DNA from: Sphingomonadales bacterium
GTDB taxonomy: Bacteria > Pseudomonadota > Alphaproteobacteria > Sphingomonadales > Govanellaceae
Reading direction: 5' to 3'
NCBI GenBank assembly: GCA_019455285.1
Contig: JACFMS010000003.1
Coordinates: 10,909 to 74,908, forward strand
DNA: 64,000 nt
In this document: piece by piece, positions 17,671 through 46,471 of the stretch
Layout of the letters: each line of letters begins with the position of its first letter
Numbering within the stretch: position 1 is the first letter of the stretch
The notes under the pieces: generated by a model
Database searches by the model: none
Told to the model about the DNA's origin: nothing
The model's input: the letters and a program-made list of their open reading frames with translations, nothing else
Translations under genes and position numbers: made by a program

Positions 17671-17674
17671 CTCG

Positions 17675-18622: not shown

Positions 18623-18695
18623 TGAACTTCTCCTCTCGGCAAGGCGGTGATCCTGCCGAGAAGGAGAGCCCGTGGTCAAGAGGTGAATTAGCCGG

Positions 18696-30920: not shown

Positions 30921-30957
30921 GACGTTGGCGCGCCAAAATGCGCCAACGTCTTTTTTT
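30921..30957 (+). terminator. Rho-independent terminator after TonB receptor gene
   Basis: Perfect 11-bp stem GACGTTGGCGC / GCGCCAACGTC with an eight-base loop, followed by seven T. It separates the plus-strand receptor gene from the end of the convergent 14-gene operon. Confidence 0.95.
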
Positions 30958-30969: not shown

Positions 30970-31431
30970 CTATTTCCGCAGTTGCGCGATGACGTCGATT
31001 TCGATCAGAAAGCCGTGTCCCCATTCCACCCCGGGCACCGTGGTGCGGGCAGGTTTGTAGGTGGGAAAATAGGTCGCATAGATGGCGTTCATGGCGGCAA
31101 AGTCCGAAGGATTTTGCAGATACACGCTGACCTTGACCACATCATCCAAGCTGGCTCCGCCGGCCGCCAGCACCATTTTCAGCGTTTTAAATACCCGGTG
31201 CATCTGCGCTTCCAGATCGCCATCCACCACCTTCCCTGTTGCCGGGTCCAAGGGAACGACGCCGGAAACGAACAAAAACCCATTGGCGGCGATGGCGTGG
31301 GAATAGGGCGGTCCCGCCGGCAACTCGGGCACATTGATGACCGTTTTCTGGGCCGGCGGCTGATGCTGACATCCGCCGATCATCGTGGCGGCGCAGATCA
31401 TGCCCGCCGCCAAGGCCATTTTCATCCGCAT
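30970..31431 (-). CDS. RidA family protein with lipoprotein signal
   Basis: 153 residues. The first 21 form a lipoprotein signal (MALAAGMICAATMIGGC, Cys about residue 21). The rest is a RidA-fold domain: PPYSHAIAANGFLFVSGVVP, DLEAQMHRVFKTLKMVL, VKVSVYLQNPSDFAAMN and a C-terminal PGVEWGHGFLIEIDVIAQL. The usual RidA catalytic Arg region (ARxxV) appears as PARTTVPGVEW. Most RidA proteins are cytosolic deaminases, so an envelope-anchored copy is unusual. Last gene of the GntR-headed operon, 15 bases after a second exported RidA gene. Its substrate in the periplasm is unknown. Confidence 0.88.
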   Translation of the reverse strand: MRMKMALAAGMICAATMIGGCQHQPPAQKTVINVPELPAGPPYSHAIAANGFLFVSGVVPLDPATGKVVDGDLEAQMHRVFKTLKMVLAAGGASLDDVVKVSVYLQNPSDFAAMNAIYATYFPTYKPARTTVPGVEWGHGFLIEIDVIAQLRK

Positions 31432-31446
31432 CGCGGACCCTTTCTG

Positions 31447-32019
31447 TCAGACGCGCACTTCAAAAATCGCATCGATTTCCACGGCGATATTGATCGGCAG
31501 CGAACTGACGCCGACGGCGGTGCGCGCGTGCAGGCCGGCATCGCCGAAAACCTGCACCAAGAGGTCGGATGCGCCGTTGATCACCTTGGGCTGATCGGTG
31601 AATCCCTCAACGGCGTTGACGAAACCACCGACCCGCACACATTGCACCACCCGGTCAAGATCGCCATCGCAGGCCAGCTTTAACACCGCAAGAATATTAA
31701 GTCCCACCTGACGGGCGCAAAGATAGCCTTCCTCCACCGTCATGTCCTGTCCGACACGGCCATAGGATTTGACACCCTCGGCCGCCGCCGGTCCCTGCCC
31801 CGCGGTATAAACCAGATTCCCGACTTTACGGAACGGTACGTAGGTCGCTACCGGCTTGGGCGCTGGCGGCAAAACAATGCCCAGTTCCTTCAGACGCGAG
31901 TCGATGCGACCGCCAGACAGCGATGATACGCTCCCCTCGCCGCTGTGCGCTTTGCCGGCGGCGAGAAACGATAACAAGCCGCCGGCCGCTATGGCGCTGA
32001 AAAAATCACGCCTAATCAT
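31447..32019 (-). CDS. RidA family protein with Tat-like signal
   Basis: 190 residues. The N-terminus MIRRDFFSAIAAGGLLSFLA carries the twin-Arg RRDFF pattern of Tat signals, ending near KAHS. The remainder belongs to the longer RidA subgroup (YjgF-like, with VPFRKVGNLVYTAGQGP, GRVGQDMTVEEGYLCARQV and a C-terminal HARTAVGVSSLPINIAVEID). It overlaps the lactate dehydrogenase-type gene by four bases (ATGA). Export of a folded RidA protein suggests it works on a periplasmic imine, enamine or similar keto intermediate. This is the second of two exported RidA proteins in tandem. Confidence 0.87.
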   Translation of the reverse strand: MIRRDFFSAIAAGGLLSFLAAGKAHSGEGSVSSLSGGRIDSRLKELGIVLPPAPKPVATYVPFRKVGNLVYTAGQGPAAAEGVKSYGRVGQDMTVEEGYLCARQVGLNILAVLKLACDGDLDRVVQCVRVGGFVNAVEGFTDQPKVINGASDLLVQVFGDAGLHARTAVGVSSLPINIAVEIDAIFEVRV

Positions 32020-33170
32020 GACTGGATCCTTTCCACTTTATCGCGCGTGATCTGGGCAACGCTGGTGCAGCCCATCAGCGCCATATCGCGCTCGACCTCG
32101 GCCCGCAAACGGGCGAGCACTCGCTCCACCCCCGCCTGCCCGCCGGCGGCCAGGCCATAAAGATAGGGACGGCCCATGGAGCACGCCTTGGCCCCCAGCG
32201 CCAGGGCTTTCAAGACATGGGTGCCGCGCCGCACGCCGCCATCGAGGATGACCTCAAGCTTATCGCCCAGCGCATCGACGATGGGCGCGATGCAATCGAT
32301 GGGCGCGGGCGCGCTGTCAAGCTGACGACCGCCATGATTGGAAACCATCACCGCGCTGGCGCCCACCTCCGCCGCCCGCTTGGCGTCGGCCACCGACATC
32401 ACGCCCTTGATGGCGAACGGGCCGCCCCAGGCGGCAATGGCCTTCTCGGCATCCTTCCAGGTCAGCGAGCGGTCGAATTGCGCGTTGATGTAGTCGATAA
32501 CGGAACTTGAGGAGCCGGTGCCCGCCGCGATGCGATCGGCGACGTTGGCGAGCTTGAACTTCTCATGAGTCAAATAATTGAGCGTCCATGCCGGATGCAG
32601 CGCAAAGCTCAACAGACTGGCCAGCGTGAGCTTGGGCGGCGTGGTCATGCCGGTCACCAGATCCCGCTCACGATTGCCGGCAACGATGGTATCCACCGTC
32701 AGGCACATGGCGTTGTAGCCTGCCGCCTTGCAGCGGTTGATGAATTCGTAAGTTAAGCCGCGATCCTTATGGATATAGATCTGAAACATCTTCGGCCCGG
32801 TGGTGAGCGCGCCGATCTCCTCGATGCTGACGGCGGAGAGCGTCGATAAGCTATAGATCGTGCCGGCCTTGGCGGCGGCCCGCGCCACCGCCCGCTCGCC
32901 CTCATGATGAAACAGCCGCGTCAACCCGGTGGGGGCCAGGAACAGCGGCCAGTCGATTTTCTGCCCCAGCACCCTGGTTGTCATGTCGATGGCGCTGACG
33001 TCCACCAGCCCTTGCGGCATCAGGCTGTAATTATCAAAAGCGGTGGTATTGCGGCGCAAGGTCATTTCGTCATCTGAGCCGCCGTCGATATAGTGAAACA
33101 GCGGCACCGGCAGGCGGCGGCGCGCCAATTTACGAAAATCAGTTATGTTGTTACAATCGTTAATGCCCAT
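32016..33170 (-). CDS. lldD: FMN-dependent alpha-hydroxy acid dehydrogenase (L-lactate dehydrogenase type)
   Basis: 384 residues, typical of the LldD/glycolate oxidase family. Features: N-terminal DFRKLARRRLPVPLFHYIDG, FMN site PLFLAPTGLTRLFH, and the active-site block VSNHGGRQLDSAPAPID, with catalytic His and Arg. L-lactate is oxidised to pyruvate with electrons passed to quinone at the inner membrane. Both deoxyhexose arms encoded in this island end in pyruvate plus L-lactate, which gives this enzyme an obvious job. Other L-2-hydroxy acids remain possible. It is coupled by overlap to the exported RidA gene downstream. Confidence 0.9.
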   Translation of the reverse strand: MGINDCNNITDFRKLARRRLPVPLFHYIDGGSDDEMTLRRNTTAFDNYSLMPQGLVDVSAIDMTTRVLGQKIDWPLFLAPTGLTRLFHHEGERAVARAAAKAGTIYSLSTLSAVSIEEIGALTTGPKMFQIYIHKDRGLTYEFINRCKAAGYNAMCLTVDTIVAGNRERDLVTGMTTPPKLTLASLLSFALHPAWTLNYLTHEKFKLANVADRIAAGTGSSSSVIDYINAQFDRSLTWKDAEKAIAAWGGPFAIKGVMSVADAKRAAEVGASAVMVSNHGGRQLDSAPAPIDCIAPIVDALGDKLEVILDGGVRRGTHVLKALALGAKACSMGRPYLYGLAAGGQAGVERVLARLRAEVERDMALMGCTSVAQITRDKVERIQS

Positions 33171-33203: not shown

Positions 33204-33956
33204 TCAAGCCATGGTCATGCCGCCGTCAATGACGAATCTGGCGCCGGTGACGTGGGCGGATTCGTCCGAAACCAGGTAGAGGACCATGGCCGCCACCTCC
33301 TGCGGCTTGGCGAATTCGCCAAGCGGGATGGTTTTCAGCTTCTCCGCCCGCTCCTCGGCCGAAAAGGTTGCTTCAAAGAGGCCGGTGGCCACCAGGCCCG
33401 GATGCACCGAATTGCAGCGAATTTTATAGCCCTTACGGGCGCAATGGAGGGCGACGGTCTTGGTCAATTGCGTCACCGCCGCCTTGGACGCGCCATAGGC
33501 CGCCAGCGTCGGCGTGCCCACCAAGGCGGCGATGGACGACAGGTTGACAATGGAACCGCCCGCCTGCCGCAGCGCCCGGATGGCATGCTGACAGCCCAAC
33601 AGCACGCCTTCCACATTGACCGCCTGAATGGCGCGCCAGTCTTCTACCGCCACCTGCTCCACGTCCTGCGGCTGGCTCGTTGCGGCGATGCCGGCGTTAT
33701 TGACCACGCCGTCGATGCGGCCGAAGTGCATCGCCGCCTGCTCCATCATCCGGCCCCAAGCGGCATCATCGCGCACATCCAGGGCCACGCCCGACGCGGC
33801 TTCGCCCAGACTTGCTGCTGCCTCCGCCGCCGCCTCGGCACGCACATCCGCCAGCACCACCCGCGCGCCTTCCGCCACCAGCCTTTTGGCGATTTCATAG
33901 CCGATGCCGGCGGCGGCGCCAGTAACGATGATGGTCTTGTTGTCTACCCTTCCCAT
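33204..33956 (-). CDS. SDR family oxidoreductase
   Basis: 250-residue classical SDR: GAAAGIGYEIAKRL cofactor loop, VLADVR (Asp after beta-2, NAD preference), NNAGIAA, Ser in NLSSIAALVG, YGASKAA, and HPGLVATGLF. It lies between the L-lactate dehydrogenase-type gene and a Gfo/Idh gene in the GntR-headed operon. Candidate roles are L-rhamnose 1-dehydrogenase (the known bacterial enzymes are SDRs) or a keto-deoxy acid dehydrogenase. Three SDRs are in this operon and sequence alone does not say which does which. Confidence 0.88.
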   Translation of the reverse strand: MGRVDNKTIIVTGAAAGIGYEIAKRLVAEGARVVLADVRAEAAAEAAASLGEAASGVALDVRDDAAWGRMMEQAAMHFGRIDGVVNNAGIAATSQPQDVEQVAVEDWRAIQAVNVEGVLLGCQHAIRALRQAGGSIVNLSSIAALVGTPTLAAYGASKAAVTQLTKTVALHCARKGYKIRCNSVHPGLVATGLFEATFSAEERAEKLKTIPLGEFAKPQEVAAMVLYLVSDESAHVTGARFVIDGGMTMA

Positions 33957-33964
33957 GGCACGGC

Positions 33965-35077
33965 CTATATGCGTTGCCGGATGGCGTCCACGAGCGGCGA
34001 CGGCAGAATGACATCAATGCAGGTCTGCTGCCGAACGCTGCGCGCCAAAGCATCCAAGGTCAACACGTTCACCACCGATTCATCAAGGCTGATTTTCGGC
34101 AAGGCTGTACCTCGAATGACGTTTGCGAAATTCGCCAACTGACGGCGGAACACCGGGAAATCCACCAGCCGCCCATCGTGGGGTTCCGCAAACGGCACGG
34201 CGATGACTTCAGAACGGCGTTGAATAAAACCAGGACTGCGGCTCAATGTGATGTCGCCATCGCCGGGAATGGTCCAGGCCTGGGGCAGACTAAGCTCGGC
34301 CTGATCGCCGGTGATCACCAGACGCTGGCCGAACACTGCCTTGCGGCTGCTTTCCACCGTGGCAACGACGCCGTTTTCATAGCCGATCCAACCGTACAGC
34401 CGGTTAAGCGTGCCATAGCACGGACTTTCAAAACCGATCGCCGATACCCGTTGCGGCAAACTGCCGGCAAAGCGATTGGCGGCATCCACCGGATAACAGA
34501 GAAAATCATGGATCACGCCGCCGCCCGTCTCCTGCTTTTGTCGCCAGGAGCGATCGGCCGCGTCCGCCGCGGCGCTTTCGGGATCGAACATGTGAAACGT
34601 GGCGTTGATGCTGTCCACCGCGCCAATGACGCCCTCCGCCACCAGTGATGACAGTTTATCCATCACCGGATGGTGGCGATACATGAAGCCTTCCATCACC
34701 ACCGCGCCGAGAGCGCGGCTGCGATGCCAGATGGCCAAGGCGTCCTCCGGCGATATGGTCAGGGCTTTTTCGCATAAAATATATCGGACGCCAGCGTTCA
34801 GGCAGTCCTCGATGTGCGCGCGATGATCGGCCGGCCAGGTGGCGATGACCACGCCGTCCAGACGCTCACGGGCCAGCATGTCGCGGTAATCGGTGTAGGC
34901 GTGATCGCAGCCGTAGTCCCGGCCCCAAGCGGCGGCACGCTCGGCGTCCCGGCTGGCGCAGGCAGCAAAGCGAACCTCGCTCGCCAGAGTTTTCGCGGCA
35001 CGGCCATGGGCATGGGAGATCAGGCCGCAGCCGATCATGCCCAAATGCAGCGGCGCTTGACTTCGAGGCGCACTCAC
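33965..35077 (-). CDS. Gfo/Idh/MocA family oxidoreductase
   Basis: 370 residues. N-terminal Rossmann domain (LGMIGCGLISHAHGRAAKTL), the ILCEKALT motif with the conserved Lys, and the C-terminal segment GFMYRHHP...GGVIHDFLCYPVDAANRF holding the His of the active site. The sequence resembles D-xylose 1-dehydrogenase/dihydrodiol dehydrogenase-like members. Members oxidise sugars at various carbons, and several recently characterised ones act on 3-keto-glycosides. Start overlaps the UxaA-type gene stop by four bases. A role in sugar C1 or C3 oxidation is likely; the position is undecided. Confidence 0.88.
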   Translation of the reverse strand: MSAPRSQAPLHLGMIGCGLISHAHGRAAKTLASEVRFAACASRDAERAAAWGRDYGCDHAYTDYRDMLARERLDGVVIATWPADHRAHIEDCLNAGVRYILCEKALTISPEDALAIWHRSRALGAVVMEGFMYRHHPVMDKLSSLVAEGVIGAVDSINATFHMFDPESAAADAADRSWRQKQETGGGVIHDFLCYPVDAANRFAGSLPQRVSAIGFESPCYGTLNRLYGWIGYENGVVATVESSRKAVFGQRLVITGDQAELSLPQAWTIPGDGDITLSRSPGFIQRRSEVIAVPFAEPHDGRLVDFPVFRRQLANFANVIRGTALPKISLDESVVNVLTLDALARSVRQQTCIDVILPSPLVDAIRQRI

Positions 35078-36606
35078 ATGGTGGCCCCGATCTGCCAGGG
35101 CGTGAATTCATTGCCGCCCATGCCCAATTCCTCGCTCTTTGTGCGCTCGCCCGAAGCCACCGCCAGGATGCGGTCAAATATCTCCTGCCCCATTTGTGCG
35201 ATGGTTACTTCACCATCGATGACGCGGCCACAGTTGATATCCATGTCCTCCGTCATGCGGTTATAGAGCGGCGTATTGGTGGCAAGCTTTAATGACGGCG
35301 ACGGCTTGAAACCGAACACCGAGCCGCGGCCGGTGGTAAAGCAAATGATGTTGGCGCCGCTGGCCACCTGGCCGGTCACGGATGCCGAATCATACCCCGG
35401 CGAATCCATGAACACGAAGCCCTTGGCAGTGATGGGCTCGGCATATTTATAAACATCCATCAAGTTGGTGGTGCCGCCCTTGGCCGCCGCGCCCAGCGCC
35501 TTTTCCAGGATGGTGGTCAGCCCGCCCGCCTTGTTGCCCGGCGAAGGATTGTTGTTCATATTGCCGCCATTACGCGCAGTGTAGTCTTCCCACCATTTGA
35601 TTCGTTCGATCAGCTTCTCGCCCACGTCGCGGCTTTGCGCGCGGGCAATAAGTAAATGCTCCGCGCCGTAAATCTCTGGCGTCTCGCTCAAAATGGCGCT
35701 GCCGCCGTGACGTACCAAGAGATCCGCCGCCGCGCCCAAGGCAGGATTGGCGCTGATGCCCGAATAGCCGTCCGAGCCGCCGCATTGCAGCGCCAGGGTC
35801 AGATGGCTGGCGGAAACCGTCTGTCGCCGCGCCTTCTCGGCGGCGGGCAGCATGGCCTTGACCCGGGCGATGCCTTCGGCAACGGTCTGGCGCGTACCGC
35901 CGGTATCCTGAATAGTCATGGCGTGAAGCCTGTCGCTTTGTTCCAGCCCCATGTCGGCCAGCACGCCCGCCACCTGATTGACCTCGCAGCCAAGCCCCAC
36001 CATCAGCACGCCGGCGAAGTTGGGATGCCGGGCAAAGCCCGCCATCACCCGCTGCAGATTGCGATGTCCCTCGCCGCCCGCCTCGATGCCACAGCCGGTG
36101 GCGTGGGGAAACGCCACCACGCCATCGACATGGGGAAACGCCGCCATATCCTCGGGCCGGCTGAAAGCGGCGGCGATCTGATTGACCACCGTGGCGGAAC
36201 AGTTCACCGTCGACAGGATGCCGATGTAATTGCGCGTCCCCACCCGGCCATCGGCGCGAACGAAGCCCTGGAACGTCGCGCGCTGCTCTTCCGGCACGAA
36301 ATCGGTGGGCCGTGCGGCGCTGCCGAAATCATAATCGCGATCAAAGGCTTTAAGCGCCACGTTGTGGGTGTGCACATGCTGCCCCGGCGCGATATCAATC
36401 GACGCAAAGCCGATGACCTGGGCATATTTGTAAATCGCCTCTCCCTTAGCAATAGTGCGTGCGGCGACCTTATGGCCCCGGGGAATGGCGGTTTTAACCT
36501 GAATACCTTCCCGCACCAGCATGGTGCCGGCGGCGATATCGTCATTGGCGACAACGACATTATCATTCCCATGCAAGCGAATAATCTGGTCTCTATCCTT
36601 GCTCAT
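35074..36606 (-). CDS. UxaA/altronate dehydratase family protein
   Basis: 510 residues: an N-terminal SAF domain (about 1-95, with DDIAAGTMLVREGIQVK and ARTIAKGEAIYKY) fused to the large dehydratase domain, with GRVGTRNYIGILSTVNCSATV, HATGCGIEAGGEG, GGSDGYSGISANPALG, and NPSPGNKAGGLTTILEKALG. Cys residues in NCSA, TGCG and GLGCEVN suit an iron-dependent site. Known members dehydrate altronate, galactarate or related aldonates. In this island it is an extra acid-sugar dehydratase beside FucD and RhmD, so it may handle a different aldonate or a stereoisomer. Substrate not determinable here. Confidence 0.9.
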   Translation of the reverse strand: MSKDRDQIIRLHGNDNVVVANDDIAAGTMLVREGIQVKTAIPRGHKVAARTIAKGEAIYKYAQVIGFASIDIAPGQHVHTHNVALKAFDRDYDFGSAARPTDFVPEEQRATFQGFVRADGRVGTRNYIGILSTVNCSATVVNQIAAAFSRPEDMAAFPHVDGVVAFPHATGCGIEAGGEGHRNLQRVMAGFARHPNFAGVLMVGLGCEVNQVAGVLADMGLEQSDRLHAMTIQDTGGTRQTVAEGIARVKAMLPAAEKARRQTVSASHLTLALQCGGSDGYSGISANPALGAAADLLVRHGGSAILSETPEIYGAEHLLIARAQSRDVGEKLIERIKWWEDYTARNGGNMNNNPSPGNKAGGLTTILEKALGAAAKGGTTNLMDVYKYAEPITAKGFVFMDSPGYDSASVTGQVASGANIICFTTGRGSVFGFKPSPSLKLATNTPLYNRMTEDMDINCGRVIDGEVTIAQMGQEIFDRILAVASGERTKSEELGMGGNEFTPWQIGATM

Positions 36607-36627: not shown

Positions 36628-38751
36628 TCACGCCCATTCCGCGACAATCATAGCAAATAGCATCAGATTTGGCAGCACGCCGGAAAGGGCGCCCTCCTCC
36701 CCCCGCGTCACGGCAAGTTCATCCCCGCTAGGGGCCATCCTGACCTTCCCGAAGGTTTGCCCCGGCGGCGGCCGAAGTTGAAATTGTACATTGGCGATCG
36801 GCAATACCGGTAAATCACGCTGATAATTCAATAAATTCATAACGGTGCGGCGCTGGTCCGGCTGATCGAACGCCGTCACCCAAACTGCCGGATGGACGGT
36901 TGCGGCAAAGCGCGGTGTTGACCCCAGGAGCCGCCGCACCAGCGCCACGAACAGCTGGCGATTGGCCGGCGTGGCGACGCCTTCCACATCGGCGGCGGCG
37001 TAAATCACTCTGCCCTTGCCAAAGGAGTTCTCAACAATCGTCGGCGCATTTATGCTCGTCCACGGCGGCGAGCTGTGAATGCTGGCCCAATCCCGGCCCG
37101 CAATGGAGCCTTCGCTGGGATAGCCGTAGGGCAAGACCAGCGTCGCCAGCGCTTGCCCGTCGCCGCCGCGCAGACGCAAGGCGCCGCTCATCTGCCGCGC
37201 GTCGCGCCAGTGGCTGAGCATATCCTGCGGCGCAATGGCGTTGATCAGATTTTGATCGGTTGGTCTTAGATACACAATCCGCCCGGTCTCCTCGGCGGCA
37301 AAATGACAGCCGAAGACATCGGCCAGCAGGAAGTCGTCATGGCGGCGTCCCGATGAGTCGGTGAGCGATGTCCAGCGGCTGGCATATACGCGGCCGCCCT
37401 GTCGCACATACTCCCGGATGGCGTCGACCTCATCGGCAGTCATGCGCAACAGATTGGGCAGCACCACTACCTTGTAGCGTGAGAGCTCGCCAAGCTGCTT
37501 CCTGGTGATGACGCCGAACGGCAGGTGCGCCGCCTGCAGCGCCCGACACGCCCCGGCCAGGCTATGAAAATGCGGATAATCGGGGGCGCTGGACGCCACC
37601 GCCTCGCCAAGCGGCGTGCCGTTATCGGCAAAGTTCATCTTGGAATCGTCGGAAAAGTAGACGGCGATGTCCTCCACCGGCTCCCCACCCAGATAAGGCT
37701 CATAGGACGCCGCGCGATCATAAACCGCCCCGACCCGCTGCGGCATCGCCGGATTCAAGCGCCCATCTGGGTCAAACGCCGTGATCATCAGAAAGGCCGA
37801 TGAGGTCGCCACGGCAGCGAAGACCTGCTGCGTCAACGCCTCTTCTTCCTTCAACCCCACGTGCTCGATCAGATTGGCGGCCACCGTGGTCATGAATTCT
37901 ACCGGCTTATGTTCCGACAGGTTGAGCATCAAGCGGGAGATCACCAGCTGCTCGGTCTGGTCGCCATAAAAGTCGCCGCCCAGAAAATCATGGCCCCTGG
38001 CCGATTGGAAGGAAACCGCCCGCGTCCAATTGGACATCCCCAACGCGAAGTTGTGGTAGACTTGCAAATGCGGCTTCCTTTGCCGCACCAGATCGCGCAG
38101 CTCGATAATGAATTCTGTGACCCAACGTTCTCTGGCGCTTTGAAAAGCGCACCATGCCAGATCGAGCCAGTCTATGGTTTCCGGGATCGTCGCATCTTGC
38201 TCTTGTTTATAGCGTTCACGGCAGGCGGCGCAGCCGCACACCCCCGCCCACCACATCATATCAAAGAATACGGCGTCCATGTCATAAGCATCGAGGAATT
38301 CATGGACCTGCGCATGAACGAACGCTCGGTAGTCCTGATTATTCATGCAGCACAGGCCATAGCGTTCGCGCGGCAGAATGCCCATGGAACTTTTGGTGAG
38401 CGGCTCAATGCGCCAATCAGGGTGTTCGAGATAAGCCCAATTGTTGAAATTGACGCTGTAGTAGGCGCACACGGGGATCTGGCGCGCCTTCATCGCCGCC
38501 AGCGTTTCCGCCACCATGTCGCGGCCGTGGAAAGCCTGATGCTGCGCCCCGGTTTTCGTCGGCCAGTTGCAGACGCCAAGATGAGACTGGAAATAGACCA
38601 TCACCGCCTGCGCGCCAGAGGCGACTACGTCATCCGCCACCCGCACGGGATCATACTTGGCCAAGAATTTGGGGTCCCAATCCGGAATCTGGGTATCAAT
38701 CAGCAGGCGGCGGTAGGACCGTTCGCTCCATGGCTTTGGCGCGCCACTCAT
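36628..38751 (-). CDS. Putative glycoside hydrolase with GH42-like trimerisation domain (family unclear)
   Basis: 707 residues with no signal peptide, so probably cytoplasmic. Residues 1 to about 340 look like a TIM barrel of the hypothetical GHL6/alpha-fucosidase-like kind: AQAVMVYFQSHLGVCNWPTK, VCAYYSVNFNNWAY, DMDAVFFDMMWWAGVCGCAA and VYHNFALGM. About 350-560 is a flavodoxin-like domain like the GH42 middle domain (VVVLPNLLRMTADEVDAIRE, VRQGGRVYASR), and a beta-rich tail follows. Acidic residues in FFDMMWW may be catalytic. It overlaps the GH78 gene by four bases, so the two probably act on one glycan or glycoside. Linkage specificity is unknown. Confidence 0.72.
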   Translation of the reverse strand: MSGAPKPWSERSYRRLLIDTQIPDWDPKFLAKYDPVRVADDVVASGAQAVMVYFQSHLGVCNWPTKTGAQHQAFHGRDMVAETLAAMKARQIPVCAYYSVNFNNWAYLEHPDWRIEPLTKSSMGILPRERYGLCCMNNQDYRAFVHAQVHEFLDAYDMDAVFFDMMWWAGVCGCAACRERYKQEQDATIPETIDWLDLAWCAFQSARERWVTEFIIELRDLVRQRKPHLQVYHNFALGMSNWTRAVSFQSARGHDFLGGDFYGDQTEQLVISRLMLNLSEHKPVEFMTTVAANLIEHVGLKEEEALTQQVFAAVATSSAFLMITAFDPDGRLNPAMPQRVGAVYDRAASYEPYLGGEPVEDIAVYFSDDSKMNFADNGTPLGEAVASSAPDYPHFHSLAGACRALQAAHLPFGVITRKQLGELSRYKVVVLPNLLRMTADEVDAIREYVRQGGRVYASRWTSLTDSSGRRHDDFLLADVFGCHFAAEETGRIVYLRPTDQNLINAIAPQDMLSHWRDARQMSGALRLRGGDGQALATLVLPYGYPSEGSIAGRDWASIHSSPPWTSINAPTIVENSFGKGRVIYAAADVEGVATPANRQLFVALVRRLLGSTPRFAATVHPAVWVTAFDQPDQRRTVMNLLNYQRDLPVLPIANVQFQLRPPPGQTFGKVRMAPSGDELAVTRGEEGALSGVLPNLMLFAMIVAEWA

Positions 38752-41327
38752 GACTTTATTTCCTTAAACTTGATAACATGGGCGCCGGGGCCGAGGCGCG
38801 CTTCGCCATGCACAATCTCATAGCCGGGCGGGGCGATGACGTCGCCTTCCGCGCCATCAGGGATCGTCACGGTTAAATCCAGATCATGCGTGCCGCGCCG
38901 CCATTCAACGGCGATATCGCCCTTGACGGTCGGATATACGCCCCGGACGTGGGAAAGATCGGCGGGCTGCGGCGCCAGGCGAAAATGGCGAAACCCAGGG
39001 GATGTCGGCTGCACGCCCAGGGAGTGGGCCGATAATTGGTAGACCGGCGACGCCGAAAAGGCATGGCACAGGCTTGCCGATGGTTCATATCCCTCCCACA
39101 AGGTTTGCGCGCCCTGATCCAGCATAGGTTTGTAGTTTTTACGAATGGCCGCCAACGCCAGATCGAACCGCCCCGCCTTGGCGAGCGCAGAATAGACAAA
39201 GTGGCTGAAGTAGGTATTGGCTTCCACCACATCATGCCTGTTATCAAACGACTCACCATGCATGACGATGGGCGGCACCGAGGTCAGCTTGGCGCGCGCC
39301 GGATCGGTGATATAGGCAATCATCGCCGGCCAACGCGCCGGCGGCGCGATACTCCAAAGTATCATCGCCGCATTGGCGTGCTGGGAGACGCGCTCGCGGC
39401 GTTCTCCCGTCACTGGGTCCGCCATATCCACATAAACCTGGCGCTGATCGTCCCAATGCCTGGCATTGAGCGCCGCGGCGATGCGCGCCGCCAGATCAGC
39501 GTAACGCTTCTGCTGACGCGGCATGTCGAGCCAACCGGCAGTCTCCGACGCCATCTGCAGCGCGCCGACGAACATCGCGTTAATGACCGCCGACTGCCCC
39601 TCGCGACCGATATCGGCCCACTCGATGAAGTGCCAGAACGGCAGATCGGCCAGCAGAAAATCCGACCCCAACTGGCGCTCAAACCAGGCGAGCGCGCGTT
39701 CAGCCGCCGGAAAAAGCTCCTCCGCCGTCACTTCGTCCCCGGTGTGCAGGAAATAGTGGTAAAGCGCGCCAATCCAATGCAGATTGAAATCAGGAATGAT
39801 GACGCCGTTGGTATAATGATCGCCCGGCGCAAACATCTGCATCAAGCCATCGGGTCGTTGGCTCATCGCGCCATCATATAAGAACTTGCAATCCACCGGC
39901 TGGCTTGAGGGACCGAATGCCGCCGCACCGGCCAGATAATGGACGATGCCGTCACCGATCCATTGCCGCTTCTCGCGCCCCGGGCAATCCTCCCACGCGT
40001 CATGGGTGCATTCCTGCACGGTGTAGCGACCGATCCGCCACAGGCGGGTTAAGAACTCATCATTGCAGTCATAAGCACCGCTATAGTCCAGCGGATAATG
40101 AGTATGAAGAGCGCCAGCATGGCGGATCTTGACGCCGTTCGGCGCATTACGCACGATAATCTGCATGTAGCGCACGGCGGTCCATTCGAATTTCTCGAAC
40201 CGCTGCGCGCCGGGCCGCGCGGTATAGCGAAAGAGATGCGCGCAATCAAGATAGGTCACCCGCGTCAGGCGGGGCTGCTCTGGCTGTTGAGCGTCAAATT
40301 CACCAGCGAAAGTTTCGCTTACCCCCACCTCGATGATCTCGCCGCCGTGCGCCTCAAGTTCGATGAAAGGATAGCCGGAGCGAATTTTATCGAACGCCAG
40401 AAACAGCGACACGTCGCGATCCGGCAGGGTGCGCGCTAGCGTTGCCTCTGGACCAGGCGTGAGCAGCGCCGTGGGGTTTTCAACCAGACCCGGCGGCAGC
40501 TCCGTCAGAATTTCATCATATAGCCGCCGATCTATGGCCAGGTCGGGTGATGGGATGACGGCATATTGCGCGATAATTTTTTCCGGCGCCACCGGCGTCT
40601 CCGCCAGGGGTGACAGATCATTAGGCACCAGGCATGAGAACGGCTCCGGCGCGCGCCAACCCTTGGCGCGGTCGTTGGGCTCGGGCGGAATGCGCAATAC
40701 CTGCACGCCATCCCAGGCCGCATCGTCGAAGTCAACCGCCGCCCAGTCGGCGGGTATTTTGTTGGCGTCGAAATCCTCGACGAAGTCCTGTCCCCAGCCG
40801 GCGCGCGGCGTATCCTGCCGCCACGCGGTGCAAATCTGACTGCGCCAAGAGGCATCAGACAAGACATCGATGACAGTATTATTTTGGCAGCGAATGCGGG
40901 CATCGCAATAAAGCCCGCCATCGCCGTAAAACGGCTGCCAATGGCCTTTGACCGTCTCATACCACGCCGTATCGACGCCATAGACATGGACCAGAACGGC
41001 AATAACGTTCTCTCCCGCCCTCAACAAGTGGGCAATATCATAGGTATCGTAGCGCTGATAGTGAGGAGTGGAGCGTACCGGCCCGCGCCCCGCGCGCGTG
41101 CCGTTGATGAATAGCTGATAGCGGCCATCCACCGTGATATCCAAGCTCGCCTGCGCCGCCGGCGCCGCCAGGTTGAACCGCCGCCGGAACAGCAGCCAGC
41201 GATTGACCCCATCGTCCCGCCGCACCGGGCCGTCTCGCAGCAGATGCCGGAAGCCAAGCTCGCGATTGATTCCTTGCCGCGGCGTCCAGATGAAGGGCGC
41301 GCGGCGACTGGCAGCCCGCGCCGCCAT
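38748..41327 (-). CDS. GH78-type alpha-L-rhamnosidase, apparently cytoplasmic
   Basis: 859 residues without signal peptide. N-terminal beta-sandwich carbohydrate-binding domain (RYQLFINGTRAGRGPVRS, YDIAHLLRAGENVIAVLVH). The (alpha/alpha)6 barrel contains the catalytic acidic cluster in WEDCPGREKRQWIGDG (residues 445-460), which matches the DCPxRxER pattern of GH78. A later TLWEGYEPSASLCHAFSASP corresponds to the WE...NH segment, and a C-terminal beta-sandwich ends the protein. It would release L-rhamnose from imported rhamnosides. Start abuts the FAH-family gene stop. The presence of L-rhamnonate dehydratase in the same operon strongly supports rhamnose as product. Confidence 0.88.
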   Translation of the reverse strand: MAARAASRRAPFIWTPRQGINRELGFRHLLRDGPVRRDDGVNRWLLFRRRFNLAAPAAQASLDITVDGRYQLFINGTRAGRGPVRSTPHYQRYDTYDIAHLLRAGENVIAVLVHVYGVDTAWYETVKGHWQPFYGDGGLYCDARIRCQNNTVIDVLSDASWRSQICTAWRQDTPRAGWGQDFVEDFDANKIPADWAAVDFDDAAWDGVQVLRIPPEPNDRAKGWRAPEPFSCLVPNDLSPLAETPVAPEKIIAQYAVIPSPDLAIDRRLYDEILTELPPGLVENPTALLTPGPEATLARTLPDRDVSLFLAFDKIRSGYPFIELEAHGGEIIEVGVSETFAGEFDAQQPEQPRLTRVTYLDCAHLFRYTARPGAQRFEKFEWTAVRYMQIIVRNAPNGVKIRHAGALHTHYPLDYSGAYDCNDEFLTRLWRIGRYTVQECTHDAWEDCPGREKRQWIGDGIVHYLAGAAAFGPSSQPVDCKFLYDGAMSQRPDGLMQMFAPGDHYTNGVIIPDFNLHWIGALYHYFLHTGDEVTAEELFPAAERALAWFERQLGSDFLLADLPFWHFIEWADIGREGQSAVINAMFVGALQMASETAGWLDMPRQQKRYADLAARIAAALNARHWDDQRQVYVDMADPVTGERRERVSQHANAAMILWSIAPPARWPAMIAYITDPARAKLTSVPPIVMHGESFDNRHDVVEANTYFSHFVYSALAKAGRFDLALAAIRKNYKPMLDQGAQTLWEGYEPSASLCHAFSASPVYQLSAHSLGVQPTSPGFRHFRLAPQPADLSHVRGVYPTVKGDIAVEWRRGTHDLDLTVTIPDGAEGDVIAPPGYEIVHGEARLGPGAHVIKFKEIKS

Positions 41328-42179
41328 TTAGTCGCCTCCGCTATAGGCGACAACTTCCTGGCGCTGTTCGCCCAATCCTTCGACCGCGAGCCGCATGACG
41401 TCGCCGGGTTTGAGAAATACCGGCGGTTTTTGCCCTACCCCGGTGCCTTCCGGGGTGCCGGTGCTGATCACGTCGCCCGGCTCCAAGGTCATGAACTGGC
41501 TTAGGTAGCTGACCATGAACGGAACGGAGAAAATGTTGTCGCTGGTATTGCTGCTCTGATAGCGATGACCGTTGACTTCCAGCCATAATTTAAGCCGGTG
41601 CGGATCAGAAATTTCATCCTTGGTCACCAGCCACGGGCCCATCGGCGCGAAGGTATCGCAGCTTTTGCCCTTGGTCCATTGCCCCACCCGCTCCATCTGG
41701 AAAGCGCGTTCCGACACATCATTCAGTACGCAATAGCCCGCCACATGGTCCATCGCCCGCGCCTCGCTGACATAACGGGCGGTCTTGCCGATGATGATGG
41801 CGTATTCCACCTCCCAATCGCCCTTGGTGGCTCCCTTGGGCAGGATCACCGGATCATAAGGACCGCTGATGGCCGATGTCGCCTTCATGAAAACCAGCGG
41901 CTCCGCCGGCACGGCCATGCCGGTCTCATGGGCATGCTTGCGGTAGTTAAGACCGATGCAAATAATTTTTCGCACGCCGGCAACGGGCGGACCGATCCTG
42001 ACGTTAGCAGGCGCCGGCGGCAGTTTTGCTATGTCGAGCGTCGCCAATCGTCCCAGATCATTTTCCAGAACCTGCGGCGTGATGTCATCGACGACGCCGG
42101 AGAGGTCCCGGATGACGCCCTGCTGATCGAGGATGCCGGGCTTCTCGCGTCCTTTGGGGCCGTATCTCAGCAACTTCAT
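41328..42179 (-). CDS. FAH family hydrolase, probable 2,4-diketo-3-deoxy-L-fuconate/rhamnonate hydrolase
   Basis: 283 residues. Fumarylacetoacetate hydrolase fold with IICIGLNYRKHAHETG, the metal-site residues in DWEVEYAIIIGK (Glu, Glu) and the closing GTPEGTGVGQKPPVFLKPGD. In the known fucose and rhamnose non-phosphorylative pathways, an FAH-family enzyme cleaves 2,4-diketo-3-deoxy-fuconate/rhamnonate to pyruvate and L-lactate. It is the only such enzyme in the window, while both arms are present, so one hydrolase probably serves both. It lies between the rhamnose-arm SDR and the rhamnosidase. Confidence 0.88.
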   Translation of the reverse strand: MKLLRYGPKGREKPGILDQQGVIRDLSGVVDDITPQVLENDLGRLATLDIAKLPPAPANVRIGPPVAGVRKIICIGLNYRKHAHETGMAVPAEPLVFMKATSAISGPYDPVILPKGATKGDWEVEYAIIIGKTARYVSEARAMDHVAGYCVLNDVSERAFQMERVGQWTKGKSCDTFAPMGPWLVTKDEISDPHRLKLWLEVNGHRYQSSNTSDNIFSVPFMVSYLSQFMTLEPGDVISTGTPEGTGVGQKPPVFLKPGDVMRLAVEGLGEQRQEVVAYSGGD

Positions 42180-42194: not shown

Positions 42195-42947
42195 CTAGTA
42201 GGTGCAACGACCACCGGAGGTATCAAACACCGCGCCGGTGGAAAATGAACAATCGGGCGAACACAAAAAGGCGATCATGGCGGCGTTTTCCTCCACGGTG
42301 CCGAGCCGGCCCATGGGAATGCGCGACAGCATGTAATCCACCTGCTCCTGGCCGAACTGCTTGAGAATGTCGGTCGCCACCGTGGCGGGCGTGATGGCAT
42401 TGACGCGAATGCCGGTTTTCGCCAGCTCCTTGCCCAGCGATTTCGTCAATCCGATCACCCCGGCCTTGGCGGCGCTGTAGCCGGAGGCGTTGGGGTTGCC
42501 TTCCTTGCCCGCTACCGAGGCGACGTTGACGATTCTGCCTGCGCCTTTCTTCAACATTTCCGGCACCACGGCGCGGCAGCACAGAAAGACGCCGACAAGA
42601 TCGATCTCCACGATCTGTCGCCAACCATCGATGGGAAACTCCCACAGCGGCAGATTGGGTCCGGCGATGCCGGCATTGTTGACCAGAATGTCGATGCCGC
42701 CGAAAGCCGCCAGCGTTGCATCCTTCGCCGCCACCACGTCTTCCCACTTGGTGATATCCACCGCTTGCGCCATTACCCGGCCGGGAGCGTTGAGCGCCTT
42801 GGCCGCCGCCTCAGCGGCCGCGCCATCCACATCCCAAATGCTCACGTAAGCGCCGGATTGCAGCAGGCGCTCGGCGGCCGCATAACCAATGCCTCGCGCC
42901 GCGCCGGTGATGATCGCAACTTGGCCGTCCAAATCGTAGCGGTTCAT
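42195..42947 (-). CDS. SDR dehydrogenase, probable 2-keto-3-deoxy-L-rhamnonate dehydrogenase
   Basis: 250 residues from ATG 42947, overlapping the rhamnonate dehydratase stop by four bases; the longer frame to 43010 lies inside that gene. SDR marks: ITGAARGIG, IWDVDG, NNAGIAG, NVASVAG, YSAAKAG, ITPATVATD. Position between RhmD and the FAH-family hydrolase matches the order of the Sphingomonas-type L-rhamnose pathway (dehydratase, dehydrogenase, hydrolase). Predicted reaction: 2-keto-3-deoxy-L-rhamnonate to the 2,4-diketo acid with NAD+. Confidence 0.88.
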   Translation of the reverse strand: MNRYDLDGQVAIITGAARGIGYAAAERLLQSGAYVSIWDVDGAAAEAAAKALNAPGRVMAQAVDITKWEDVVAAKDATLAAFGGIDILVNNAGIAGPNLPLWEFPIDGWRQIVEIDLVGVFLCCRAVVPEMLKKGAGRIVNVASVAGKEGNPNASGYSAAKAGVIGLTKSLGKELAKTGIRVNAITPATVATDILKQFGQEQVDYMLSRIPMGRLGTVEENAAMIAFLCSPDCSFSTGAVFDTSGGRCTY

Positions 42948-44140
42948 GCGGCATCTCCCGCATAGGGGCGGTGCAGCGTCACCGCGCCGCGATTGAGCTT
43001 CAATCCCCAACCCGGCTCATCGCTGGGCCGCACCGCGCCGTTTTTCGGCAACACTTCATTGGTAAACAGCGCGCCGAACACCGGCAGAATCTGATCCGCG
43101 CCGGGGCTGGTGTTGATGTATTCGCAGAACGGGCAATGGGGTTGCGAGATGACGAAGTGATAGCTGTAGGCGCCGCTGCCATGCGGCACCACCGGAATAT
43201 CATAGGCCGCCGCCATGGCGGAGACGCGCAACAGCTCGGTCAAGCCGCCGACCCACATCACATCAGGCTGAATGATATCTACCGCACGATCGGTGATCAG
43301 CTGGCGAAAGCCGTAGCGGCTGTATTCATGCTCGCCGGTAGTCCAGCGCATGAATGGCGCGCGCTCCTTCAATAAGCGGTGGCCGTCGATATCATCCGGC
43401 GATAAACATTCCTCCAGCCAATAGATATCCAAATGTCGCACCGCATTTGCGAGCTCCACGGCGTAAGCCACGTCGAGCGACATGTAGCAATCCACCTTAA
43501 GCTTGAAATCCGCTCCTACCTTCTCGCGGTGATCGGCCAGAAACTTGACATTGGCGCGCAAGCCATCGGGGCCGTCCGCGGGACCATGGGGCAGCGGCAC
43601 CTTGGCGCCGATGAAGCCAAGCTTCTTGGCGGTTTCAGCATAAGCGCCGGTTTGATAGACCATCAGTTCCTCTCGCGTGGCGCCGCCGATCAGTTTATAG
43701 ACCGGCTCGCCGCGCAACAGGCCAAGAATATCCCACAGCGCCAGATCGACCACGCTCAAGGCGGCCAGCGGCAGGCCCTTGCGGCCATAGGGCAGGCTGG
43801 CGCGGTACATCTGATCCCACATCTTGGCGATGTCGCGCGGGTCTTGGCCGATGAGAAAACGGCGGAAATGGTGTTCAATGAGAAAACACGCCGCCTCCCC
43901 GCCTAATCCGGTGGCGACGCCCACCGTGCCGTCATCGGTTTCGATCTCCACGACGATGCTGCCCAAGACGCCAATGCCCCAACTGGTGCGCGACGCCTTG
44001 TAGTCAGGATATTTCGACATCGGGTTGGCGATCAGCGTATCGACCAGCCAATGTCCCTTCTCACGGTCATGATATTCGCCGCCGGCCCCCTTCTCCGCCA
44101 CGGTGTAAGCGCGAACATCGACTATCTTATTTCTGATCAA
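42944..44140 (-). CDS. rhmD: L-rhamnonate dehydratase (enolase superfamily)
   Basis: 398 residues from a TTG at 44140, preferred because GGAG lies eight bases upstream and the TTGA overlap with the preceding stop fits the operon; a GTG at 44149 is the alternative. Strong likeness to E. coli RhmD: PMSKYPDYKASRTSWGIGVL, CFLIEHHFRRFLIGQ, VDLALWDILGLLRGEPVYKL, FIGAKVPLPHGP, IIQPDVMWVGGLTELL, VVPHGSGAYSYHFV and GWGLKLNRG. Metal ligands are in KLKVDCYMS, WLEECL and GEHEYS; the base His is in PHGSGAYSYH. It dehydrates L-rhamnonate to 2-keto-3-deoxy-L-rhamnonate. Confidence 0.92.
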   Translation of the reverse strand: MIRNKIVDVRAYTVAEKGAGGEYHDREKGHWLVDTLIANPMSKYPDYKASRTSWGIGVLGSIVVEIETDDGTVGVATGLGGEAACFLIEHHFRRFLIGQDPRDIAKMWDQMYRASLPYGRKGLPLAALSVVDLALWDILGLLRGEPVYKLIGGATREELMVYQTGAYAETAKKLGFIGAKVPLPHGPADGPDGLRANVKFLADHREKVGADFKLKVDCYMSLDVAYAVELANAVRHLDIYWLEECLSPDDIDGHRLLKERAPFMRWTTGEHEYSRYGFRQLITDRAVDIIQPDVMWVGGLTELLRVSAMAAAYDIPVVPHGSGAYSYHFVISQPHCPFCEYINTSPGADQILPVFGALFTNEVLPKNGAVRPSDEPGWGLKLNRGAVTLHRPYAGDAA

Positions 44141-44919
44141 CTGACACACTCCGAAATTGACATCTTGCTACTATGACTGAGCCGCGCCTTGAACGCCGGG
44201 TCCGTGAACACCACTTCACTGCCAGACAGATCGCGCGGACGATGAAGGCACAGCCAGGCGATGGCGGCGGCCGGCGCCGCCGGCGGATCGAATGTTGCTG
44301 GATCAAGATCAGCAATGCGGTTGACCTTATGTTGCAGCGCCGAGCGCGTAAGCTCGGTATTGACCATGCCGGGCTGAAAGCTATAGACGCGAATATCGCT
44401 GCCCGCCGTTTCCGCCGCCAATACTCGGGTCAGCATGGCGAGCCCCGCCTTGGCGGCGCAATAGGCGCTCCAGCCTTCCAGGGCATGAAATGCCGCGCCG
44501 GAACTTAAATTGATGATGACGCCGCTGTTTTGCGCGCGAAATATCGGCAAGGCGGCGTGGCAGGCATAAAAACTGCCATTCAGATTAATCTCGATGCATC
44601 GCGCCCAGGCATCCGGCGGACATTCCTCGATCGGCGCGAGGGGATCCATCACGCCGGCGCTGTTGATGACATAATCCAGGCGGCCGAAGCGCTGCATCGC
44701 AAGCGCAATAGCCGCGTCTACCTGATCGTTGTGGCTGACGTCGCAAGACATGGCCAAGGCCTTGCCGCCTCTGGCCATGACCTTGTCGGCCACAAGGTGA
44801 CACGACGATTCGCTGCGGGCGGCCACGACCACAGACACGCCATGCTCGGTAAGCGCCAGCGCGGTTGCCGCGCCGATGCCATGGCTGCCGCCAAAAACGA
44901 TGCCGACCGGCGATGTCAT
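44137..44919 (-). CDS. SDR family oxidoreductase (atypical cofactor loop)
   Basis: 260 residues. SDR fold with cofactor loop GGSHGIGAATAL, VVAARSE (Arg/Ser after beta-2, suggesting NADP), INSAGVM in place of NNAG, Ser in NLSSGAAF, and YCAAKAG. The C-terminus ends with a short Ser/Lys-rich tail. It lies between the TIM-barrel isomerase and rhamnonate dehydratase with overlapping ends on both sides. L-rhamnose 1-dehydrogenase would be the reaction missing from the rhamnose arm, and this or the SDR at 33204-33956 could supply it. Confidence 0.86.
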   Translation of the reverse strand: MTSPVGIVFGGSHGIGAATALALTEHGVSVVVAARSESSCHLVADKVMARGGKALAMSCDVSHNDQVDAAIALAMQRFGRLDYVINSAGVMDPLAPIEECPPDAWARCIEINLNGSFYACHAALPIFRAQNSGVIINLSSGAAFHALEGWSAYCAAKAGLAMLTRVLAAETAGSDIRVYSFQPGMVNTELTRSALQHKVNRIADLDPATFDPPAAPAAAIAWLCLHRPRDLSGSEVVFTDPAFKARLSHSSKMSISECVS

Positions 44920-45731
44920 ATATACCTCGACACAAGGTCGCGCATCTGAATGATTTCGCTTAACACATCATCATAGCGCGTGTTCATGTAGTCCTGATGA
45001 ACGTTTTCCAGCACCAGGTAGCCGTCATACCGTACGCTGCGCAGCGTGCCGATGAGGGCCGGAAAATTGATTGTTCCATATTCGAATTTGGCTTGCAGCT
45101 CGCCGGGCTTGGCCTGGCGCAGATGCATATGGGCGGCATGAGGCGCCAGGGGATCAATGTCTTCCTGGCGAAAGCCGAGGCAGACAAAATGCGAATAGTC
45201 CAGCGTCAATTTTAGTCCCGGCACTTGGCGCAACAGCGCAAGCGCTACCTGCGGCGATTCGGCGAAGGAGCGCACATGCGCCTCGATGGTCAGCGTAATG
45301 CCAACCTCTTGGGCGATCGGCAGCAACCGATTAAGCCCGGTTGCGGACGCCTCAAGCGCGGTTGCCACCGTCTGCCCGGGATTGACGACGCCGGGAAGCA
45401 GAAAGATGCGGCCAATGCCGGCTGCAGCGCAAAACGCCACGACTTTTTTGAAGTCTTCCGCATTGGCGGCGTGATTTTCAGGAGCCGCCAGATTGCGTTC
45501 GTCCAACGCAGCGCCAAAGCGGTAGTAGAAACATGGCATGTCGATATTCAGATCGCGTAAAGTCCGGCCGGCCCGCTCCGGCGCTGATAACAACGCGCTT
45601 CGGTCAATGGCGGCGCGGTAATCAACGCCAATGTCGAGCGCCGGCACGCCCAAGGCCTTGGCGATATCGGCGCATTCATTCAGGGTGCAGTGGGGAAACG
45701 ACCAGGAGGCCAAGGCCATTTTCATTGACAT
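44916..45731 (-). CDS. Sugar phosphate isomerase/epimerase family TIM-barrel protein
   Basis: 271 residues of the AP-endonuclease-2/xylose-isomerase-like fold: MKMALASWSFPHCTLNECAD, GVPALDIGV, IGRIFLLPGV, ITLTIEAHVRS, LTLDYSHF, HMHLRQAK and YLVLENVHQDY. The metal ligands expected of the fold (Glu in IEAH, Asp in LDYSH, His in HMHLR, Glu in VLENV) are all visible. The family contains epimerases and isomerases, and also lyases/hydratases acting on 3-keto-glycosides. Second gene of the GntR-headed operon. Its exact role, epimerisation of a keto sugar or 3-keto-glycoside cleavage, is open. Confidence 0.87.
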   Translation of the reverse strand: MSMKMALASWSFPHCTLNECADIAKALGVPALDIGVDYRAAIDRSALLSAPERAGRTLRDLNIDMPCFYYRFGAALDERNLAAPENHAANAEDFKKVVAFCAAAGIGRIFLLPGVVNPGQTVATALEASATGLNRLLPIAQEVGITLTIEAHVRSFAESPQVALALLRQVPGLKLTLDYSHFVCLGFRQEDIDPLAPHAAHMHLRQAKPGELQAKFEYGTINFPALIGTLRSVRYDGYLVLENVHQDYMNTRYDDVLSEIIQMRDLVSRYI

Positions 45732-45754
45732 TCGGCGGTTTCCCTCCTCCCCCC

Positions 45755-46471
45755 TCAGGCCTGCTGATGCTTCAGGTAGGCGGCGCGGACATTGCGCAGA
45801 TGGCGTTCCATGGCTGCGCCGGCCTTTTCCGCGTCGCGCTCCTCCAGCGCTTCGAGTATTTTTTGGTGATCCTTGATGCTCTTCTTTAACACCCCCGGTA
45901 TGTACCCGGTGATCTCCCGGCTGGCGCGCCCGAGCACGTGCAGGCTGGTGGCGACCCGGATCAGGAAGGAATTTTCCGCCGCATCGAAGATCGTGCGGTG
46001 AAACTGCACGTCGGCATCGATGAATTTCTGCGGATCGTCCAGCAGGCTGTCCTCATCGCTCACCAACGTTCTAAGATGTGTGAGCTGCTCGCCAGAAATC
46101 TTTTTCGCCGCCAGCTTGGCGATCGCCGACTCCACCACGATGCGCGCTTCAAACAGATCCTCGATGTTATGATCATCGAGACTGATGAAGAAATGGATCG
46201 GTCCCAACAGGGATTCAGGGTCCAGGGCCGACACGTAAACGCCGCCGCCTTGGCGGATTTTCACCACGCCCAAAAGTGACAACGCTCGCAACGCCTCCCG
46301 CAAGCTCGGTCGGCTGACATCGAGAATGGTCGCCAGCTCTCGTTCCGGCGGCAGCTGCTGCCCCGGCTTTAAGTTCCCCGATTGAATTAAGCCCAAAAGC
46401 TGCTGCGCCACCTGCTCCGCCACAGGCTGACGTTGAATCGGACTGACATTTTGCTTACTGATCGTCATCAC
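45755..46471 (-). CDS. GntR family regulator, FadR subfamily
   Basis: 238 residues. N-terminal winged helix-turn-helix (VAEQVAQQLLGLIQSGNLKP, LPPERELATILDVSRPSLRE, LSLLGVVKIRQGGGVYV), then an all-helical FCD effector domain with metal/ligand residues in FEARIVVES, DADVQFHRTIF and a late H in AMERHLRNV. FadR-subfamily regulators that control sugar-acid genes bind TGGT-N3-ACCA type palindromes. Such a site lies about 90 bases upstream of this gene and five more sit before other genes of the island. It heads a 14-gene operon, so it is probably autoregulated; the inducer is likely a sugar acid or keto acid. Confidence 0.93.
   Translation of the reverse strand: MMTISKQNVSPIQRQPVAEQVAQQLLGLIQSGNLKPGQQLPPERELATILDVSRPSLREALRALSLLGVVKIRQGGGVYVSALDPESLLGPIHFFISLDDHNIEDLFEARIVVESAIAKLAAKKISGEQLTHLRTLVSDEDSLLDDPQKFIDADVQFHRTIFDAAENSFLIRVATSLHVLGRASREITGYIPGVLKKSIKDHQKILEALEERDAEKAGAAMERHLRNVRAAYLKHQQA

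Follow-up and report, generated by a model that had tools for sequence, protein, structure and literature searches.

Two genes of the Rid family lie in tandem on the minus strand, at the end of a predicted L-rhamnose operon, in a 64,000-nucleotide stretch of DNA from a sphingomonadalean bacterium (family Govanellaceae; assembly GCA_019455285.1, contig JACFMS010000003.1, positions 10,909 to 74,908), which is referred to here as the window and belongs to genome G000. The last gene of the array, that of RidA1 (P0001; 30970..31431, minus strand), encodes a canonical RidA-subfamily protein of 153 amino acids that is a predicted lipoprotein. Its match to PF01042 (113.9 bits, cut-off 27.3) places it in the RidA subfamily, and like Salmonella and E. 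coli RidA and TdcF it has a domain that scores above the TIGR00004 cut-off (111.8 bits against 106.25) and keeps the Arg, Glu and Tyr, here R129 (in PAR-T), E144 (in LIE-I) and Y43 as aligned with 2dyy and 1xrg. R129 and E144 correspond to R105 and E120 in E. coli numbering. The best-known bacterial RidA members are cytosolic. RidA1 departs from its subfamily in the Val that replaces the usual Gln after Ser-Gly and in its lipoprotein signal: the N-terminus, MRMKMALAAGMICAATMIGGC, has, by rules and by eye, a hydrophobic core behind a short and basic n-region, then a lipobox (I18-G19-G20-C21), and the rule-based signal peptide with its lipobox Cys covers residues 1-20 (31372..31431, minus strand), with Gln at the +2 position. 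Under the sorting rule for lipoproteins, Gln at +2 would direct the protein to the outer membrane. The signal is retained as MWTKMAMAAGMICAAMMIGGCQPQ in G003, another genome of this genus. The sequence AAAGGG, resembling a ribosome-binding site, stands six bases 5' of the RidA1 ATG (31438..31443, minus strand), with AAAGG also present in G003, and the alternative starts GTG34 and TTG37 would lose the signal and have no comparable ribosome-binding site. Between RidA1 and a convergent TonB-receptor gene, a hairpin followed by a T-run (30921..30957), read from the sequence, is likely to be a terminator shared by the two.

RidA2 (P0002; 31447..32019, minus strand), of 190 amino acids, is a Rid1-like protein and a predicted Tat substrate. 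It matches PF14588 with 86 bits (cut-off 35) and, more weakly, PF01042 with 51.5 bits; its PDB matches are 3d01, 2otm, 9bk9 and 9bkb, and the PDB relatives that bear a Rid name are PA0814 and ACIAD3089, which together with the PF14588 domain assigns it to the Rid1 subfamily. In PMC5619798, PA0814 and ACIAD3089 are classed as Rid1 and deaminate 2-aminoacrylate and several imines. RidA2 keeps the catalytic Arg and Glu of this subfamily (R166 and E181) together with Y60. The PDB matches start no earlier than P0002 residue 39, whereas RidA2 adds a Tat-type signal and falls in a clade of exported proteins described below. The signal, read by eye, spans about residues 1-26 (31942..32019, minus strand), and in MIRRDFFSAIAAGGLLSFLAAGKAHS comprises an RR-D-F-F motif, a mild Gly/Ala-rich h-region and a Lys in the c-region. 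Ile precedes the twin arginine, where most relatives have the more usual Lys or Glu, and the model TIGR01409 returned no match for RidA2 up to E 10, one relative reaching 7.6 bits against a cut-off of 16.7. The twin arginine itself, R3R4, is present in all 12 exported RidA2-type rows aligned, and the window genome encodes TatC. A sequence resembling a ribosome-binding site, GGAAAGGA (32027..32034, minus strand), lies seven bases 5' of the RidA2 ATG, inside the 3' end of the upstream flavin gene, whose stop overlaps the RidA2 start as ATGA; the only other ATG, GTG or TTG codons ahead of the domain core are TTG15 and TTG50. Because RidA1 (PF01042/TIGR00004) and RidA2 (PF14588) belong to different Rid subfamilies, the pair is not the product of a recent tandem duplication.

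The two signals were judged by these rules, read by eye, and by their conservation. Both are kept in G003 in nearly the same gene order, and AAAGG-type ribosome-binding sites lie 6-7 bases 5' of both first ATGs in G000, with similar ones in G003. Between the two genomes, third codon positions account for 13 of 23 substitutions in the first 45 codons of RidA2 and for 5 of 10 in the first 40 codons of RidA1. The signal regions diverge faster than the domains, yet they stay in frame: for RidA2 dN is 0.117 and dS 0.556 over 37 codons of the signal region (domain 0.016 and 0.229), and for RidA1 dN is 0.104 and dS 0.164 over 28 codons (domain 0.007 and 0.209). Nine Rid-family proteins are encoded in the window genome, of which only RidA1 and RidA2 have an export signal, the other seven having none of this kind. 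The initial annotation had described a tandem of two RidA genes, one with a lipobox and one with a Tat-type signal, and the description holds: both reading frames are where it placed them, on the minus strand, and the active-site Arg and Glu agree with those of canonical RidA at R129/E144 and R166/E181. It had also raised starts downstream of the signals, against which stand the ribosome-binding sites at the first ATGs, their retention in G003 and the overlap of the RidA2 start with the flavin-gene stop. A third RidA-family gene of the window (L004; 2797-3192, minus strand) has no export signal and lies in an aromatic-degradation-like cluster; the same cluster contains a two-domain protein (FAD_binding_3 and Oxidored_FMN, 8127-10433) that we take to be reminiscent of aminobenzoyl-CoA monooxygenase/reductase.

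The L-rhamnose operon

The Rid pair closes a minus-strand array that begins with a GntR-type regulator and ends with RidA2 and then RidA1, and the initial annotation's placement of the pair at the end of a sugar-acid operon was correct. The regulator (assigned by eye), a xylose-isomerase-like TIM barrel and an SDR that is a candidate L-rhamnose dehydrogenase occupy 44137..46471. They are followed, all on the minus strand, by an L-rhamnonate dehydratase (42944..44077, the longest open reading frame extending to 44149; NF011968 482.1 bits, cut-off 393), a member of the SDR family whose place in the gene order makes it a candidate 2-keto-3-deoxy-L-rhamnonate dehydrogenase (42195..42947), and a FAH-type protein resembling 2,4-didehydro-3-deoxy-L-rhamnonate hydrolase (41328..42179; best match NF053535 at 410.5 bits, below the cut-off of 500). 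Profile matches then identify a GHL6/GH42M-like glycosidase and a GH78 alpha-L-rhamnosidase-like protein (36628..41327) and, in the same operon, an SDR, a Gfo/Idh oxidoreductase and a galactarate/altronate-dehydratase-like gene (33204..36606); an FMN-dependent alpha-hydroxy-acid dehydrogenase resembling LldD (32016..33170; PF01070 455.9 bits; PRK11197 327.5 bits, below the cut-off of 376) immediately precedes the Rid pair. Judged from these matches, the operon appears to be of the L-rhamnonate/diketo-hydrolase type, with the hydrolase match lying under its cut-off, and it resembles the non-phosphorylative L-rhamnose pathway of the Sphingomonas type in its rhamnonate dehydratase, FAH hydrolase, SDRs, GH78 protein and LldD-like gene. 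The diketo route of L-rhamnose breakdown yields pyruvate and L-lactate, and for this reason the LldD-like flavin gene fits the operon as an L-lactate dehydrogenase; as L-lactate accounts for the flavoenzyme, no link to Rid chemistry is needed. In PMC3870299, lldD appears in the RhaR regulons of some Actinomycetales and Rhodobacterales, and the terms RidA and YjgF do not occur.

No amine-producing exported enzyme was found in the window operon. The rhamnose operon of G003 includes a Tat-type M19 dipeptidase gene (L128:14194-15378), between UxaA-like and GHL6 genes, that is absent from the window. The absence of amino acid genes that the initial annotation noted for the operon does not extend to the window as a whole, where an Asp/Glu racemase-like gene (14265-15113) and an ornithine cyclodeaminase-like gene (17675-18679) lie with TPP-enzyme genes in the interval 14265-20411, about 11-17 kb from the Rid pair. 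The interval 51424-53537 (minus strand) holds a GMC-like oxidoreductase gene (51424-53010, by eye) and an overlapping short gene with a Tat-like N-terminus, whose protein (52992-53468) matched no Pfam family.

When 385 genomes of the class were searched for the rhamnonate dehydratase at E<=1e-120, nine had it, the window's own included. The other eight loci, with flanks of at most about 9 kb (less where the contig ended), were searched in all frames with two local Rid profiles, the Rid1 profile having been built without rows L012 and L165_10. No Rid gene was found within these flanks at any of the eight other alphaproteobacterial loci, and the same search recovers both genes in G003; relative to these eight loci, the exported Rid genes of the window operon are extra. 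In another family, a 3.2-kb contig (G074:C79, locus L129) carries a rhamnonate dehydratase, an SDR and a FAH gene, 80, 76 and 68% identical to those of the window, and behind them an exported RidA2 relative (58%). The association of Rid with rhamnose genes recurs, yet the pathway elsewhere runs without Rid. Presumably the pair joined the L-rhamnose operon in the window genus as an accessory and is co-expressed with it.

Rid1 proteins with export signals and their neighbours

At E<=1e-20, relatives of RidA2 occur in 293 of the 296 genomes examined in the order, and at E<=1e-46 in 130 of the 385 genomes of the class-wide sample. Among the order-wide matches listed, many start near RidA2 residue 36-40 and so leave out the signal region, while the ones that extend to residue 1 or close to it belong to the window genus (g1) and to two genera of family f8, g20 and g23. 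Of the class-wide loci read by eye, none but the window's own has an export signal. In a tree of 74 rows built on the domain alone, all 35 exported Rid1 rows form a single clade (support 100/97), and export can therefore be regarded as an inherited trait of the clade. One of its branches unites the window with G003 and L129 (94/65) and the other g23 with g20, and Y60, R166 and E181 (RidA2 numbering) are kept in every one of the 35 rows. The label of exported had at the outset been attached to 38 rows (37 by a regular expression, plus the window row); L173, L181 and L165_10 fell outside the clade, had no signal by eye and were dropped. Two plasmid hits, H32 and H38, were left uncounted: their alignments enter the signal region and their annotated starts lie downstream.

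A second combination of Tat-type and lipoprotein Rid proteins is found in g20, where two Rid1 genes lie in tandem with their ends overlapping or closely spaced, the first copy being Tat-type (MERRSFFAAAG-type) and the second carrying a lipobox (MLRRALFAS...LAAC-type). In G114 of this genus the stretch examined holds the Tat-type copy only. The two kinds of copy are sister groups within the exported clade, which indicates that the g20 pair arose by duplication. The window came to this arrangement by a different way, its lipoprotein being a RidA of another subfamily, and two independent arrivals at one soluble and one tethered protein suggest that the pairing matters.

Outside the window branch, the usual neighbours of the exported Rid1 genes encode exported amidohydrolases or Tat-type PLP enzymes of the aminotransferase/C-S-lyase kind. 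In g23, a gene for an exported amidohydrolase adjoins the Rid gene in 11 of 15 loci; those without it are L130 and L131, which by eye have housekeeping-type neighbours only, L133, and the short locus L032. The 10 loci of g20 include three with an amidohydrolase and eight with a PLP enzyme within 2 kb (seven within 0.5 kb), and each of the 10 has one or the other. These PLP enzymes have Tat-type N-termini, except that the N-terminus of L146 is cut off by the contig end. One of them scores 21.3 bits against PF10518 (cut-off 22.7), all three that were scanned match Aminotran_1_2, and the single protein tested reached 319 bits as a PatB C-S lyase, below the cut-off of 340. Beta-elimination by PLP enzymes gives rise to 2-aminoacrylate. 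Several g20 and g23 loci also hold a FAD-dependent DAO-family oxidase and a D-serine-dehydratase-like PLP enzyme. At E<=1e-50 the g20-type PLP protein is present in 14 of 296 genomes of the order (13 of g20 and one other) and absent from the window genome, which has 18 Aminotran_1_2 matches and six M19 peptidase matches. The g20 genomes G083, G091 and G100 encode the PLP enzyme, but their Rid matches are weaker, the best lying between 2.8e-40 and 9.7e-44, and among those inspected none was recognised as exported. On contig C15 of the window genome, five M19 dipeptidase paralogues are found within 13 kb (G000:C15:95631-108674; L204-L208, L233, L234), the M19 peptidases of this contig having no clear signal by eye, and a signal-less RidA-family gene, L005, lies about 7 kb away.

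On the side of RidA1, 80 named relatives were put through a rule-based signal scan, L051, L061, L083 and L096 being left out for their truncated translations. The 18 rows called 'SEC?' appear to have been called in error, on the RidA core or from wrong starts, and were not accepted as exported. The lipobox rows counted are L048, from the same genus, and L059, from an Acidobacteria MAG, in which the lipoprotein-type RidA (L059:1645-2109) adjoins, by eye, a multihaem-type protein and a large CHAT/TPR-like protein. In G047, the gene for a canonical RidA with a Sec-type export signal (L227:8758-9207) lies between those of exported beta-lactamase-fold proteins, in a region (L227:5003-10496) with a penicillin amidase near. 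In the RidA tree, which is poorly resolved, these lipoprotein and Sec-type canonical proteins (P0001/L048, L059 and L227) do not group together.

A proposed envelope role and its alternatives

What is new here is a clade of Rid1 proteins that combine export signals with intact catalytic residues and are often encoded beside exported amidohydrolases or Tat-type PLP enzymes; searches of the open-access literature gave no earlier account of exported bacterial Rid proteins, as a pair or as a clade. In the main text of Niehaus et al. 2015 (PMC4433059), signal peptide, periplasm and lipoprotein do not occur as terms, and the Arg is given as essential for imine hydrolysis in RidA, with Rid1-3 keeping both Arg and Glu. 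An exported RidA is nevertheless not without precedent. Chlamydomonas has been described as having a periplasmic amino-acid oxidase, LAO1, with LAO2/RIDA as small subunit, and Gluconacetobacter has a lao-cccA-ridA operon with a Tat-type oxidase, for which a periplasmic oxidase/RidA pair has been proposed. The window pair is like these systems in that RidA is tied, here by prediction, to deamination outside the cytosol, and unlike them in that no amino-acid oxidase is encoded among the genes of the window operon and in that two Rid subfamilies are combined with two different export signals. The initial annotation had proposed an unrecognised envelope role: the export signals, the catalytic Arg and Glu and the position at the operon end do point to the envelope, whereas the word unrecognised is only partly right in view of the Chlamydomonas and Gluconacetobacter precedents.

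To the reading that RidA1 and RidA2 are imine/enamine hydrolases located in the envelope we give about an even chance. RidA2 would be exported in the folded state via Tat to the periplasm, and RidA1 would be lipidated and, as its +2 Gln suggests, placed in the outer membrane. Each would assemble into Rid-type trimers in which the catalytic Arg and Glu sit where two subunits meet, and the two would convert alpha-imino and enamine acids to 2-oxo acids and ammonia outside the cytosol. Sources of the imines could include exported amidohydrolases, peptidases, PLP enzymes and flavin oxidases, or the medium. We infer that the window pair shares the function of the exported clade, and the exported amide, peptide and PLP neighbours favour envelope imine/enamine hydrolysis over sugar tautomerisation. 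Against the reading count the lack of a g20-type PLP enzyme at E<=1e-50 in the window genome and of an exported amine-producing enzyme in its operon, the housekeeping-type surroundings of L130 and L131, the three g20 genomes that have the PLP enzyme but no exported Rid recognised, and, for the signal of RidA2, the unusual Ile and the missing TIGR01409 score.

The latter had been the suggestion of the initial annotation, namely that the pair hydrolyses or tautomerises, in the envelope, reactive keto or imino sugar intermediates of the L-rhamnose pathway. Such a role has in its favour the position of the pair in the operon, the recurrence of an exported relative behind the rhamnonate genes of another family (G074:C79, L129), and the cytosolic RidA OngD, essential for an amino-sugar-acid pathway (PMC9537276). 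We nonetheless consider it unlikely, as Rid is missing from the flanks searched at all eight other rhamnonate loci, the pathway enzymes have no export signal by eye and their intermediates should be cytosolic, alpha-imino acids are known ligands of Rid active sites, PMC9537276 leaves the role of OngD itself undefined, and the relatives of RidA2 adjoin exported amidohydrolases or Tat-type PLP enzymes. Equally doubtful, in our estimation, is that the exported Rids are partner subunits that stabilise or speed a periplasmic oxidase or dehydrogenase and not free scavengers. The pairing of LAO1 with LAO2/RIDA and the lao-cccA-ridA operon with its Tat-type oxidase are models for such a partnership, and the window pair overlaps a flavoenzyme gene and shares the window with the GMC-type oxidoreductase gene at 51424-53010 (so identified by eye); the overlapping flavoenzyme, however, has no export signal and is accounted for by L-lactate, and no oxidase of this kind stands beside the g20 pair.

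Two further explanations are still less probable. RidA turns into a chaperone on N-chlorination, as has been reported. Exported copies might accordingly guard periplasmic proteins as holdases or in oxidant defence, which would agree with their export, their conserved fold and published work on chlorination of Rid-family proteins; we regard this as very improbable, the retention of the catalytic residues in 35 of 35 rows and the hydrolase- and PLP-type neighbours fitting catalysis better. The least probable alternative is that the N-termini do not function in export and the proteins act in the cytosol. RidA2 does lack a score with the Tat model TIGR01409, and dN is higher in the signal regions than in the domains (0.104 and 0.117 against 0.007 and 0.016), but the ribosome-binding sites that precede the first ATGs, the conservation seen in G003, twin arginines throughout a whole clade and clear lipoboxes in the duplicated copies all argue for export.

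The preferred reading, catalysis by Rid proteins in the envelope, can be carried a step further, although we put this forward tentatively, as possible rather than probable. Bacteria may defend themselves against reactive intermediates in the envelope too, by means of a Tat-exported Rid and a lipoprotein Rid that work as a pair and detoxify imines and enamines from exported PLP enzymes and hydrolases. The two proteins might even form mixed trimers, the soluble partner being held at the membrane by the lipoprotein; the pairing would have evolved at least twice, from different Rid subfamilies. The g20 loci, with an exported amidohydrolase, a Rid pair and a PLP enzyme, constitute a directly testable set for such an envelope role. 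A PLP enzyme that is exported via Tat together with its cofactor would need an imine hydrolase of its own on the same side of the membrane. Rid proteins have been studied as cytosolic guards of PLP enzymes, and the existence of an exported clade implies either imine/enamine stress in the envelope or a deliberate release of amines there.
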